Shown piece after piece: positions 49,393-54,593 of a DNA stretch of 54,593 bases (the stretch's first letter is position 1; each line of letters opens with the position of its first letter). Source of the stretch: Cytophagales bacterium (GTDB lineage: Bacteria > Bacteroidota > Bacteroidia > Cytophagales > Cytophagaceae); contig JAAFID010000003.1 in assembly GCA_013297765.1 (NCBI GenBank), positions 1 to 54,593 on the forward strand, in the 5' to 3' direction. Both the position numbers and the translations under genes were made by a program. The notes beneath the pieces are model-generated. The model saw only the letters and a list, made by a program, of their open reading frames with translations. It was not told where the DNA came from and did no database searches.

Positions 49393-50025
49393 ATGGATTT
49401 ATTTATAAATAGCTATTGCCACATAGGCCAATCTACTATATCTAAGGATGGGCTAGTGCTTCACAACCTAGACGGTATAGGTATAGAAGAAATGCTAAAA
49501 AATGGATACCAATTACTAGACTTAAATTATCCCAAATATTACAAAATGGATTCCTTATCCAAACTTGGTATATTGGCGGCAGAAATATTATTGGCAGAGG
49601 TGAATTGGGAAAAACAATTTACAAAAGATGCTTTTGCCATCATGCTTTCCAATAGTGATTCTTCTTTAGATACCGATATAAAATACCAAAAAACAATTGC
49701 TCAAAAGAATGCCTTCTTCCCTAGTCCTGCAATGTTTGTGTACACCCTTCCAAATATTGTAGCAGGCGAAATTGCAATCAAACATCAATTAAAAGGAGAA
49801 AATTTATTTTATATTTCGCAATCTTTCGATACCCATCAAACACAAATATTGGTAGAAAATATCTTTTCAAAACCACAAACTAGTGCTAGTTTAGTAGGCT
49901 GGGTAAATGTATTGAATGAAAATTACGATGCTTTCTTGATGCTAGTATCGCCTTTACTAACCGAGCAGGCCATCAAATTTGAAGCACAAAATATAGATAC
50001 TTTATATACGCATAATTATGGATGA
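49393..50025 (+). CDS. Half-length ketosynthase-like protein (N-terminal half only, no active-site Cys)
   Basis: MDSLSKLGILAAEILL..AIMLSNSDSSLDTD..VYTLPNIVAGEIAIKHQLKGENLFYISQSF resembles KS N-terminal half. Confidence 0.7.
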   Translation: MDLFINSYCHIGQSTISKDGLVLHNLDGIGIEEMLKNGYQLLDLNYPKYYKMDSLSKLGILAAEILLAEVNWEKQFTKDAFAIMLSNSDSSLDTDIKYQKTIAQKNAFFPSPAMFVYTLPNIVAGEIAIKHQLKGENLFYISQSFDTHQTQILVENIFSKPQTSASLVGWVNVLNENYDAFLMLVSPLLTEQAIKFEAQNIDTLYTHNYG

Positions 50026-50275
50026 TTTAATACAAGAATTAAAGAAAGAAATAGTAGAGCAGCTAAACCTACAAGATATAGACCCGAGTACCATTAAAGA
50101 CACTGATCCATTATTTATAGACGGTTTGGGTCTCGATTCTATAGATGCACTAGAGTTAATCGTGCTGTTGCAAAAAAAATACGGTATCAAACTAGCGAGT
50201 GCCGAAGATGGTAAAGAAGTATTTTATTCTGTAAAATCAATGGCAACCTACATTACCAAAATGCAGCAGAAATAA
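50018..50275 (+). CDS. Acyl carrier protein 2
   Basis: LGLDSIDALELIVLLQKKYGIKL. Confidence 0.92.
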   Translation: MDDLIQELKKEIVEQLNLQDIDPSTIKDTDPLFIDGLGLDSIDALELIVLLQKKYGIKLASAEDGKEVFYSVKSMATYITKMQQK

Positions 50276-50317
50276 TTTCCATACAAAATTTCCAACACCA
50301 CCGCCTAATATTACACC

Positions 50318-51523
50318 TTGAAAAAAGTTTTCGTCACAGGTTTGGGAACTATTTCTGCTATTGGCAACAATGTAGCAGAAAGCTACCGGTCGCTACTGGC
50401 CATGCGTTCAGGTATATCGGCCATGCAGCTGCTCGATTCCAATTTAAAATCGACGCTACCAGTAGGTGAAATAAAACTTACCAATACACAGCTACTACAA
50501 CTATTGGGCATAAGCCATAGCCAACGCATATATTCTCGCACAGCACTCTTAGCGATGATAGCCGCCAAAGAAGCATTTCACCACGCACAACTACACCGCC
50601 GCCCATTAGCTAGAACTGGTATGTTTGGTGGCACTAGTGTAGGTGGCATGGATAGAGGCGAGGAATTTTACAAAGATTATTTGGCTAGCCCTTCTTTGGC
50701 TAAGATAGATTATGCCAAAGTACACGACTGTGGCGAAAGCACAGAATGTGTGGCCGATATGCTAGGCATACAAGATTTTGTTACTACCATAAGTACTGCT
50801 TGCTCTTCGGCAGCCAACGCCATTATGCAAGCTACCAAAATGATACAATTGGGATTGCTAGATACAGCCATAGCAGGCGGTGCCGATGCGTTTTCACTAT
50901 TTACCCTCAATGGATTTAACTCGCTAAAAATTCTTTCTGATGAATTTTGCCAACCTTTTGACAGCAACCGAAAAGGGCTAAACCTAGGCGAGGGTGCGGG
51001 CTTCATTGTATTAGAATCAGAAGAAATAGTAGAGAAAAACCACAAAACTCCGTTGGCAGAAATTACAGGCTATGGCAATGCTTGCGATGCCTTTCATCAA
51101 ACAGCCTCTTCGGCCGATGGGCAGGGGGCTTGGCTGGCTATGAATGCTGCAATTGGGCAAAGTGGTATAGCACCAGAACAAATAGGCTATATCAATATGC
51201 ACGGCACAGCTACGCCCAACAACGATTTGTCAGAGGGTACAGCCGTAAAACGAATTTTTACAAATGGCGTTCCTGCATTTAGTTCTACCAAGGCATATAC
51301 CGGGCACACCCTAGCAGCATCGGGCGGCATCGAGGCCGTATTTTGCACTTTGGCATTGCAACATGGGGTGGCTTTTCCCAATCTTAATTTTCAAACACCC
51401 ATAGAAGAGCTAGGGCTAGTGCCAGCGACCGATGTCACTTCTATTCCTAATTTAAAACACGTACTTTCCAATTCGTTTGGTTTTGGGGGAAACAACACAT
51501 CACTTGTATTTTCAAAATGTTAA
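50318..51523 (+). CDS. Beta-ketoacyl-ACP synthase (intact Cys-His-His, TTG start)
   Basis: ISTACSSAANAIMQA, NMHGTATPNND, KAYTGHTLAASGG. Confidence 0.92.
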   Translation: MKKVFVTGLGTISAIGNNVAESYRSLLAMRSGISAMQLLDSNLKSTLPVGEIKLTNTQLLQLLGISHSQRIYSRTALLAMIAAKEAFHHAQLHRRPLARTGMFGGTSVGGMDRGEEFYKDYLASPSLAKIDYAKVHDCGESTECVADMLGIQDFVTTISTACSSAANAIMQATKMIQLGLLDTAIAGGADAFSLFTLNGFNSLKILSDEFCQPFDSNRKGLNLGEGAGFIVLESEEIVEKNHKTPLAEITGYGNACDAFHQTASSADGQGAWLAMNAAIGQSGIAPEQIGYINMHGTATPNNDLSEGTAVKRIFTNGVPAFSSTKAYTGHTLAASGGIEAVFCTLALQHGVAFPNLNFQTPIEELGLVPATDVTSIPNLKHVLSNSFGFGGNNTSLVFSKC

Positions 51524-52587
51524 ATTCGGCCATTTACATTGTGGGTATTGGTTCTGTATCTGCCCAAGGGTTTGATGAGGCTACTTTGTTGCAAAATTTG
51601 AATCCGCTACAATCTATTTTATCACACATTAAAGAACCCAACTATTCCCAGTACATCGAGGGCAACAACATTAGGCGAATGGGCAAGCTAATGAAAGCCT
51701 CTTTGGTTGCCGCCAAGCGTTGCATAGCAGATGCACAGCTACAGCCTCAAGCCATCATAACAGGAACTGGACTGGGCTGTATGGAAGAAACTGTGAAATT
51801 CTTAAACACCGTAATAGATACAGAAGGTGGCGTACTGTCGCCTACTGCCTTTATACACTCTACACACAATACCATAGGCAGCCAAATAGCTATTGCTGTA
51901 AATTGTACGGGCTATAATTCTACCTACGTTCACCGTGCATTTTCATTCGAGCAAGCACTTTTCGATGCACAATTGCAATTGCTCACCCACGACCCTACAG
52001 CACATCATGTATTGGTGGGCGGTGTAGATGATATGGTGCCAGTAGTTTTTGATGTATTGAAAGAACTTGATTTTTGGAAATCAGCATCTACGCCAATACT
52101 TGACAGCAAATCGAAAGGCAGCTTTGCAGGTGAAGGAATGAATTTTTTAATGCTGTCTAATCAGCAAACAAATCATGCTTACGCAAAGCTTTTGGGAATT
52201 AAAATGTGCTATAAGCCCCAATCTACAAACCAAGTAGCAACATGTTTGACAGATTTTTTATTAGAAAATAAAATATCACCAGTAGATATAGACTTGGTTT
52301 TACTAGGCGATAATGGAGATATGCGATTTACTGAATTTTATAATGCTATCATTACGCTATTCCCAGTTGCAAAGGCTCTGGGGTACTACAAACACTTGTG
52401 CGGAGAATATTTTACAGCCTCTGCCTTTGGTGTAGTATTGGCTTCATTAATATTAAAAAATCAATATGTATCTTCTGCGATTTCTGAAAATTACAATTCG
52501 GCAAAACCTTTAAAAAACATATTGCTATACAACCAGTTTCAAGGCGACCATCATAGTTTTTGTTTGCTGCAACATGTCGAAATATAA
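51517..52587 (+). CDS. KS-fold protein lacking catalytic residues (chain-length-factor-like)
   Basis: SQIAIAVNCTGYNSTYVHRAFSFEQALFDA aligns ungapped to KS motif with Ala at the Cys position; His positions not conserved. Confidence 0.8.
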   Translation: MLNSAIYIVGIGSVSAQGFDEATLLQNLNPLQSILSHIKEPNYSQYIEGNNIRRMGKLMKASLVAAKRCIADAQLQPQAIITGTGLGCMEETVKFLNTVIDTEGGVLSPTAFIHSTHNTIGSQIAIAVNCTGYNSTYVHRAFSFEQALFDAQLQLLTHDPTAHHVLVGGVDDMVPVVFDVLKELDFWKSASTPILDSKSKGSFAGEGMNFLMLSNQQTNHAYAKLLGIKMCYKPQSTNQVATCLTDFLLENKISPVDIDLVLLGDNGDMRFTEFYNAIITLFPVAKALGYYKHLCGEYFTASAFGVVLASLILKNQYVSSAISENYNSAKPLKNILLYNQFQGDHHSFCLLQHVEI

Positions 52588-53323
52588 TATTGCCCGCATT
52601 ACTTTTCTACTCGCACTTATAGGGTGTTTGTATCTTCAAAATTTTTCCTTGACCATTGCCGTTACGCTAGTATTTGTAGGGGTATTAAGTGCTGGTGCAT
52701 TCTTCATTAGGTGGAATTTTTATCATACCTCTATGCATTGCTTATCAAATTCATCAGCACTTTTTTTAACTTTCGACGATGGACCCCACCCACAGCTGAC
52801 TTCCTTGGTATTAGATATGCTAAAAAAGCATCAATGCAAAGCCACATTTTTTTGTATTGGAAATAAGATTAAAGGCAACGAGCATCTGCTACAACGCATG
52901 GTGGCCGAGGGGCATACTGTAGGCATACACACTTGGTCACATAGCTATTGGTTCGATTTGTTACCCACCTACAAAATGAAACAAGAAATTGTAGCTACAC
53001 AGTTGGAAATACAGCGTGCTACAGGTTTAGTACCTACGCTGTTTCGCCCACCTTATGGCGTTACCAACCCAATGTTGGCAAGAGCTATGAAATATACACA
53101 CGTTACTTCAATAGGCTGGACTATACGCTCGCTAGACACCGTAATTAAATCATCTGAAAAAATTATAGCCAAAATAACCCCCCAACTGAGCGCAAAAAGA
53201 ATTCTACTCTTGCACGATACACAGCCTTGTGCAGTAGAGATACTTCAATCCGTAATAAATACATGTGCAAGTAGCAATTTATTAATAGGAGATATACAAC
53301 AATATGTAAAGTGTTATAGGTAG
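52574..53323 (+). CDS. Polysaccharide deacetylase (NodB domain)
   Basis: LTFDDGPHPQLTSLVLDML, GHTVGIHTWSHSYWFDLL, LFRPPYG. Confidence 0.92.
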   Translation: MSKYNIARITFLLALIGCLYLQNFSLTIAVTLVFVGVLSAGAFFIRWNFYHTSMHCLSNSSALFLTFDDGPHPQLTSLVLDMLKKHQCKATFFCIGNKIKGNEHLLQRMVAEGHTVGIHTWSHSYWFDLLPTYKMKQEIVATQLEIQRATGLVPTLFRPPYGVTNPMLARAMKYTHVTSIGWTIRSLDTVIKSSEKIIAKITPQLSAKRILLLHDTQPCAVEILQSVINTCASSNLLIGDIQQYVKCYR

Positions 53324-53487
53324 GTGTATTTATGATAGTATAAGTTGATTATTACTAGGTATATAATATATACAGGTATTCGTCTTTTACATTTCATTTT
53401 CCCACAATACTGGTAGAAGGCAAGGCTACATAATATAAACAACGACTGGGACAAGCTCGTCTTGGCCTTTTCAATTTTTCAGCGTCT

Positions 53488-53531
53488 AGCACCGAAATCC
53501 GTCGGTGCTGATATATAAAGGACGTCCGTCC
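53488..53531 (-). repeat. Two-hairpin intergenic repeat, inverted copy C
   Basis: AGCACCGA-N6-TCGGTGCT (53488-53509) and GGAC-GTCC-GTCC (53520-53531); reverse complement matches copies A/B in layout. Confidence 0.7.
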
Positions 53532-53654
53532 GCTGTTTGAATTAAATTGCAAAATCAATAACTTGGCGTTTATTTTCAGCTAAAGATGAGCAGCAAATAC
53601 AAATTTAAGAACACTTATCTTTCTTAGTAAACATCATGTATTATCGTAAACATC

Positions 53655-53704
53655 GGGCGGACGCCCTGCTCATAAAGGAGTACCGACGGACGTCGGCACC
53701 AGCG
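53655..53704 (+). repeat. Two-hairpin intergenic repeat, copy A (50-bp unit)
   Basis: GGGC-GGAC-GCCC (53655-53666) and CCGAC-GGAC-GTCGG (53683-53696). Confidence 0.8.
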
Positions 53705-53754
53705 GGGCGGAAGCCCAGCTAATAAATGGACACCGACAGACGTTGGTTCTAGCG
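53705..53754 (+). repeat. Two-hairpin intergenic repeat, copy B (50-bp unit, tandem with A)
   Basis: GGGC-GGAA-GCCC (53705-53716) and ACCGAC-AGAC-GTTGGT (53732-53747). Confidence 0.78.
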
Positions 53755-53811: not shown

Positions 53812-54435
53812 CTAGTCTTTTAACTGGTCGTCAACCATATGGAACAATTCCTCTAGTTTCATCTTGTTTCCTTTTTCTCTTCGATAATGTAGAAGTACAT
53901 ACAAGGCTAAATAGCTAATAAACGGGATAGCTAAGACCATGAAAATATTGTTATTCGAAGCTTTAACATGATAAGTTTCCATTATTGCAACAATTAAAGC
54001 GAAAAGGCCACAACTCAAAAGCAAAATTAGTAGGCTAGTAAATGATGAAATTTTAAGTTTCCTTTTCATTATTTTCAAATCTATTAGACTCTGATCCGTA
54101 CAAAGAAAGTGTTTTTTCCCCGTGTCGTGATTGGCCGCTGCAACCCAACGACCCTTTTTCATCTTCACATTTTCGACCCACACCATAGTCACGGAATGGT
54201 CATTCCGAACGGGAAAAGTAATATTAGCTAATTTGACTGGCTCCTCGCTTCCATTTGCAGTCCTTAAAAAAAATTCTACAATCTCTGTCGAGGAACTACT
54301 TATATTAGGGGAACTAACATAGCCTCCAAATTTTCCAACGTATCCACCACCACCAGATGAGTAAACCTTCGTTTTGGAGTGTTTCTGGAGCCCGATAACC
54401 TCTCCTTTTATTGATTCTACAGTTATGCCATTCAT
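53812..54435 (-). CDS. Uncharacterised membrane protein with Gly-rich SSGGGGYVG..GGYVSSP motif
   Basis: GEVIGLQKHSKTKVYSSGGGGYVGKFGGYVSSPNISSSSTEIVEFFLRT; two TM helices; start MNGITVESIKGEV preferred. Confidence 0.6.
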   Translation of the reverse strand: MNGITVESIKGEVIGLQKHSKTKVYSSGGGGYVGKFGGYVSSPNISSSSTEIVEFFLRTANGSEEPVKLANITFPVRNDHSVTMVWVENVKMKKGRWVAAANHDTGKKHFLCTDQSLIDLKIMKRKLKISSFTSLLILLLSCGLFALIVAIMETYHVKASNNNIFMVLAIPFISYLALYVLLHYRREKGNKMKLEELFHMVDDQLKD

Positions 54436-54593
54436 ATAATTTTGTTTTGATTGAAATTTATTTGGCGAAATCAAGTGATAAATGCAACTTAATCCGATTG
54501 ATTTATTTCTTTTAAAATTACTTAATTTGGTGTTAAATACACCTAAAATGACGTAAGTTTTCAACTTTCGTATCTATCTTTTTCCATAAATCT

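Follow-up and report, generated by a model that had tools for sequence, protein, structure and literature searches.

Near the right-hand end of the window, by which we mean the whole stretch of 54,593 nucleotides analysed here, lies a miniature element of about 230 bp (about 53478-53710) that we regard, with a probability of roughly 0.85, as a non-autonomous, internally deleted MITE of a Bacteroidota-type RAYT transposon of subclass 2.6 (group 5 of Bertels), the ends of which would be hairpin DNA sites for a RAYT acting in trans. This reading draws on the element and its copies, an intact parent, the deletion, the architecture of the ends, the polarity of a wobble pair and whole units at unrelated sites, all of which are seen in the sequence.

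Layout and deletion origin of the element

The sequence-only reading had described a three-copy intergenic repeat family of paired hairpins. All three hairpin pairs are present, in C (53486-53535), A (53655-53704) and B (53705-53754); what did not stand is their description as three repeats, which are replaced by one internally deleted transposon and one duplicated end. C and A are mutually inverted copies and constitute the left and right ends of one element, matched by a covariance model at 53478-53538 (+) and 53648-53710 (-), and B is an extra right end, a tandem duplicate of A. The features are as follows.

53478..53710 (+): whole miniature element (left end, residual interior and right end), from covariance-model matches and eight aligned genome copies; outer limits approximate
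53488..53509 (+): left end, outer hairpin AGCACCGA-AATCCG-TCGGTGCT, from sequence, folding and conservation
53520..53531 (+): left end, inner hairpin GGAC-GTCC-GTCC, from sequence, folding and conservation
53532..53585 (+): residual RAYT 5' leader, inside a 105-bp stretch with 95% identity to the parent on G001:C31
53586..53627 (+): vestigial RAYT start, ATG...TAG, reading MSSKYKFKNTYLS*, the first seven codons being those of intact P0001
53607..53640 (+): deletion junction with a trace of C-terminal codons (ATCATGTAT); the parent has about 540 bp here, comprising the greater part of its RAYT gene
53655..53666 (-): right end, inner hairpin GGGC-GGAC-GCCC, from sequence, folding and conservation
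53680..53699 (-): right end, outer hairpin, minus strand GTGCCGAC-GTCC-GTCGGTAC, with G-T wobble, from sequence, folding and conservation; core CCGAC-GGAC-GTCGG at 53683-53696
53705..53716 (-): extra right end, inner hairpin GGGC-GGAA-GCCC, from sequence and folding
53732..53747 (-): extra right end, outer hairpin ACCGAC-AGAC-GTTGGT, from sequence, pattern scan and folding

Between its ends the window element holds ATGAGCAGCAAATACAAATTT, the start of a RAYT gene. An intact gene was found in G001, the only same-genus genome sampled, where contig C31 carries a 185-aa ORF (P0001, beginning MSSKYKF) between the same two ends; C31 starts inside the left end, and contig C53 supplies the missing part through a 99-bp exact overlap. 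The window is 95% identical to this parent from 53502 to 53606 (left end, leader and seven codons) and 89% identical to the parent's 3' end from 53641 onward, with about 540 bp lost in between. Its sequence marks the window element as a MITE that arose by deletion from a RAYT transposon. It has terminal inverted repeats, a deleted RAYT gene, copies in the genome and an autonomous relative with an intact RAYT, all in keeping with the REP/MITE-like mobile DNA suggested earlier. The same type of parent occurs in the more distantly related genome G079, with the reading frame disturbed in one locus (L039), next to at least three shortened copies with another deletion, in which the leader is joined to the C-terminal half of the RAYT; since the deletions in the window and in G079 differ, deletion derivatives arose more than once. 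The kind of element is known (RAYT subclass 2.6), and we provisionally regard the window MITE as new in its deletion origin from a RAYT gene.

Copies in the host genome and in relatives

A search with the whole region of the window's own genome (3.56 Mb in 290 contigs, 99.3% complete) found it at eight places including the window, on eight contigs, and a covariance model of one end found 16 ends at E<1. Most of these copies match the window through left end, interior and right end. Because they align over the whole element and not over the hairpins alone, the interior is conserved too, in contrast to simple REP doublets, which have no conserved interior. When GTDB contigs were scanned for a pattern in which the stems had to be exact, the matches lay in Cytophagaceae and Chitinophagaceae records and also in unrelated organisms, mostly GC-rich actinobacteria and proteobacteria, and the latter were treated as chance matches.

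That these copies are old fossils of a RAYT element, now inactive, whose retained base pairs reflect inheritance and not selection, seems to us unlikely. Several copies are indeed eroded (those on C103 and C236), and no intact cognate RAYT of the P0001 subfamily was found in the window's own assembly, which makes current mobility in this host doubtful. However, the two best copies within the genome are 95% identical to that of the window, and those in G001 are 86-88% identical to it, compared with 67% between the two genomes for ligA, the sole host gene compared by DNA and thus a small sample; element copies that exceed a host gene in identity point to recent movement or transfer. The cognate RAYT may be absent from the host or may have been lost in assembly gaps. 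The sequence-only reading had proposed looking for such a transposase, and this partner turned up in relatives (in G001, in G079 and as a C-terminal fragment in G014), whereas an intact cognate did not in the window's own assembly. The Y1_Tnp genes of that genome comprise four IS200/IS605-like, unrelated ones, and a RAYT at G000:C37 was rejected as the cognate, being 41% identical to P0001 and belonging to a different end family.

No exact empty site was found for the window copy: the single same-genus genome gave no orthologous DNA match to its flanks. Its termini, and a target duplication if there is one, are therefore not defined to single-base precision. The ligA region (L231, G000:C124:16580-17817), on a contig with no detected element copy, is a possible empty-site locus, too diverged at 67% identity to G001 for base-level comparison. 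At G000:C144:929-1405 (L002/L013), a MITE copy adjoins a second-family RAYT gene that lacks its 5' half, with a long G-run at the junction, reflecting either an insertion with deletion or an assembly artefact. Another MITE copy, at G001:C5:101778-101999 (L042), seems to interrupt an RHS-like reading frame (...DITYDPNGNIKRMTRN...).

Structure of the ends

The pattern ACCGACNGACGTYGGT, allowing up to three mismatches, gave five matches, all in this region, where 0.20 are expected, and none of 100 shuffles reached five. When single sequences were folded thermodynamically, C (z -3.8) and B (z -2.1) gave convincing results; right end A, with z about 0.4, was not above its shuffles. RNAalifold alone, applied to 26 ends from five genomes in the same orientation, predicted only the inner hairpin. 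Since both approaches were partial, the structure call for the ends rests on counted covariation: the two helices keep 89.9% of pair cells across the 26 ends, 19 changes are double-sided, and the covariation score was reached by none of 500 shuffles. We accept the hairpin structure because of this conservation, despite the weak folding of A. The compensatory G:C to A:T change noticed beforehand recurs in these ends (column 53:60, GC in 14 and AU in 7). The earlier reading had named a lack of other copies and a lack of covariation as the outcomes that would speak against it; there are about seven copies beyond that of the window, and the double-sided changes settle the second point in its favour.

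One column of the outer stem (15:30) is G·T in 24 of the 26 ends and A·T in two, the window's left end and its extra right end. The G·T pair would read A·C on the complementary strand and, as the ends are inverted, lies on opposite strands at the left and right end. The foot beside the stem is GCT[AG] in the window family. The canonical REP foot tetranucleotide GT[AG]G is absent there, as it is from the foot GYW found across families, and without it the window element is not a canonical REP.

It is very improbable that the hairpins work at the RNA level, terminating transcription or stabilising mRNA between two convergent genes, and were spread only by segmental duplication. The window copy does lie between convergent genes, a polysaccharide deacetylase ending at 53323 and a minus-strand ORF at 53812-54564, and REPs are often transcribed downstream of genes, according to the sections drawn on from PMC3733652. 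However, an Rfam scan of the window gave no match at the gathering score, the copies keep the RAYT leader and start codons, and the same ends flank intact RAYT genes; the intact parent already largely refutes such an origin. Moreover, the wobble is mirrored at the two ends, as befits two inverted DNA sites and not one transcript, and the structured RNA that had been offered beside mobile DNA is not supported.

The transposase and movement of whole units

RAYT units together with their ends were found at sites with unrelated flanks, both within genomes G468 and G555 (93% identity over 670 bp and 89% over 767 bp) and between the sister genomes G007 and G015 (99.3% and 91.5% identity). Near-identical whole units at unrelated sites imply that the RAYT unit itself moves, and units of this group evidently can move, or did move, as wholes.

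P0001 matches Y1_Tnp and passes the NCBIfam model NF047646 for REP-associated tyrosine transposases (86 bits, cut-off 80). A search of the PDB with P0001 alone returned only a designed protein, judged spurious, and a profile search gave TnpArep (4er8, E 7e-8) as the best match. That the ends are those of an ordinary IS200/IS605 insertion sequence is barely credible: the protein shares the Y1 family, matches NF033573 (TnpA of IS200) weakly at 31.4 bits, and whole units move, but this score lies below the cut-off of 55 while NF047646 is passed, and the two ends of the window element are inverted copies, unlike those of IS200/IS605, whose end hairpins lie on one strand.

The RAYT assignment can be narrowed. 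P0001 carries the motifs SHVH, FWQ, YIHENP and SS, and the parts of the description of subclass 2.6 used here (Quentin et al. 2018, PMC6006769) give NH[LIV]H (an HUH motif preceded by N), WQ, YIH[QN]NP and SS as the consensus, from which P0001 differs before HVH (S, not N) and before NP (E). Those parts describe mostly Bacteroidetes proteins of about 180 aa with HVH, WQ, YIHxNP and SS; their genes lie between atypical secondary structures that recur at other places in the genome. Flanking inverted secondary structures with genome-wide copies are present in the window family too. By length, motifs and flanking structures, the transposase would thus belong with subclass 2.6, two motif residues differing. 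The structures themselves are there called just atypical, weaker and without GT[AG]G, whereas here they can be described as paired hairpins whose tips match, together with a G-T wobble of fixed polarity and a degenerate foot of the GYT type.

End architecture across the class

P0001 homologues were collected from a family-level set and a class-wide draw of 396 genomes, 116 of which had a match at 1e-35, and the flanking DNA was fetched. Inverted, hairpin-bearing flanks stood well above shuffled controls in 88 of the 126 sampled RAYT loci and were not detected in 38. Wherever both hairpins were detected, the outer hairpin is followed by a spacer of about 10 nt and the inner hairpin, and this layout recurs in RAYT families with unrelated stem sequences. 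By a strict test, the inner hairpin is found at only about a third of ends (52 of 151), whereas shuffled sequences gave 7 on average and never more than 13.

The two hairpins have related tips. Within an end, the match between outer and inner tip was 0.593 compared with 0.441 when permuted (30 protein clusters, p<5e-5), in a test that includes at least one pair (L183) in which the inner hairpin is a tandem duplicate of the outer; at a looser threshold p was 1e-4, with only nine clusters. Furthermore, the inner tip resembles the outer tip more than hairpins of the same gene do (p=2e-5), a comparison that ruled out a composition artefact.

The wobble has a fixed polarity. At pair 7 from the loop of the outer stems, a G·T pair has its G in the 5' arm 56 times and TG never occurs; counted by protein cluster at pairs 6 and 7, this orientation is found 19 times and the reverse 0 times, the wobble being present in only 19 of 49 clusters and as frequent at upstream as at downstream ends. 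Alignment gives a consensus of about CCCGYTRSCGC...GTG, made up of a foot G-Y-T/A and a C-G-C/G-T-G step centred on the wobble, in many cases with several C residues outside. The window family, CCCGCTRGCGCCGAC-GTCC-GTCGGTGC, fits this consensus; its loop has 4 nt and its wobble lies at pair six, where the window's left end has A-T.

Ends are also duplicated at other loci. Two orthologous RAYT loci (L094 and L095, in G014 and G011) differ by about 133 bp; here the right end seems to have been duplicated in tandem, as it has in the window. At L100 (G015:C5), the right end runs into tandem 10-mers, ACTATTGGGG, with the terminal foot repeated at least three times.

A possible mechanism and its relation to known systems

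From these features we infer how the ends might be bound, the strand chosen, the cut placed and the element mobilised in trans. Each end would form a REP-like unit in which a foot GYT(R) is followed by an outer hairpin (usually with a G·T wobble) and, beyond a short AT-rich spacer, by an inner hairpin whose tip resembles that of the outer one. When the locus becomes single-stranded during replication or repair, a RAYT provided in trans would bind the ends through their hairpins. It could tell the correct strand at each end from the foot together with the G·T pair, since the latter is A·C on the complement. The catalytic tyrosine would then cut adjacent to the foot, and the segment between the ends would be moved. 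Deletion derivatives that retain the ends may stay mobile after loss of the enzyme gene. Recognition of a foot and paired-tip hairpins, with G·T as a strand mark, is proposed by analogy with TnpAREP, for which the portions of the 2021 NAR study consulted (PMC8266576) report strand-specific recognition of folded single-stranded hairpins by way of a GTAG foot and irregularities in the stem, with cuts made at CT dinucleotides next to the REP.

In its working, the element is like a REPIN and its RAYT or a MITE and its transposon. REPINs, in the part of their description considered here (Bertels and Rainey 2011, PMC3116915), are likewise small mobile elements of two inverted REP units served by a RAYT. 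They are paired REPs with a short spacer, whereas here the interior is a RAYT gene remnant, each end has two hairpins, and there are about ten copies per genome; the high copy number beside a genomic RAYT that marks REPINs is replaced by a low copy number and an assembly with no cognate RAYT. TIRtrons or TIRYTs, as covered by the excerpts used from Di Nocera et al. 2013 (PMC3733652), similarly have a RAYT-like gene between long inverted repeats; some of these repeats contain self-complementary stretches and occur as dispersed copies. Those excerpts describe no Bacteroidetes case, no deletion-derived miniature and no twin-tip or wobble rule. In the TnpAREP systems of E. coli, Stenotrophomonas and Marinomonas, the consulted portions of PMC8266576 again describe a single-stranded hairpin recognised strand-specifically by its foot tetranucleotide, with a stem irregularity in group 2. 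That irregularity is a bulge or mismatch, lacking in the perfect palindromes of group 3; its counterpart here is a single G-T pair whose distance from the loop is fixed.

More tentatively, and at slightly less than even odds in our judgement, RAYTs of subclass 2.6 could in general read a two-part code in single-stranded DNA, with same-tip hairpins that change together and a polar G·T pair as the strand mark that replaces the GTAG foot; they would then be true unit-moving transposons that shed deletion MITEs, and not only domesticated genes serving REPINs. How the strand is chosen on a near-perfect palindrome is an open question for REPs without a bulge, and a G·T pair that keeps its position and polarity in stems of unrelated sequence provides a one-base test. 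Matched tips in the two hairpins could amount to a readable specificity code between enzyme and site. Moreover, whole units at unrelated sites together with independent deletions show how a RAYT gene can give rise to miniature repeats, which is usually only assumed. The sections compared of PMC6006769, PMC3733652, PMC8266576, PMC3116915 and PMC2817692 describe neither a coupling of the twin tips nor a polar wobble nor an origin of MITEs by deletion, and we regard these three as provisionally new, subscription literature, including the Bertels 2017 group classification, lying outside this comparison.

Neighbouring sequences in the window

Upstream of the element, from 50018 to 53323, the window encodes consecutively an acyl-carrier-like protein, two ketosynthase-like ORFs and the polysaccharide deacetylase, an arrangement that resembles a cluster of the flexirubin/aryl-polyene type; the family search covered the deacetylase only. 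At the other side, the last 53 bp (54541-54593) are 96% identical to the left end and leader of a second RAYT family, intact at G000:C37, and the contig probably ends within a further RAYT element, from which the ORF at 53812-54564 (-), as listed, takes its N-terminus.
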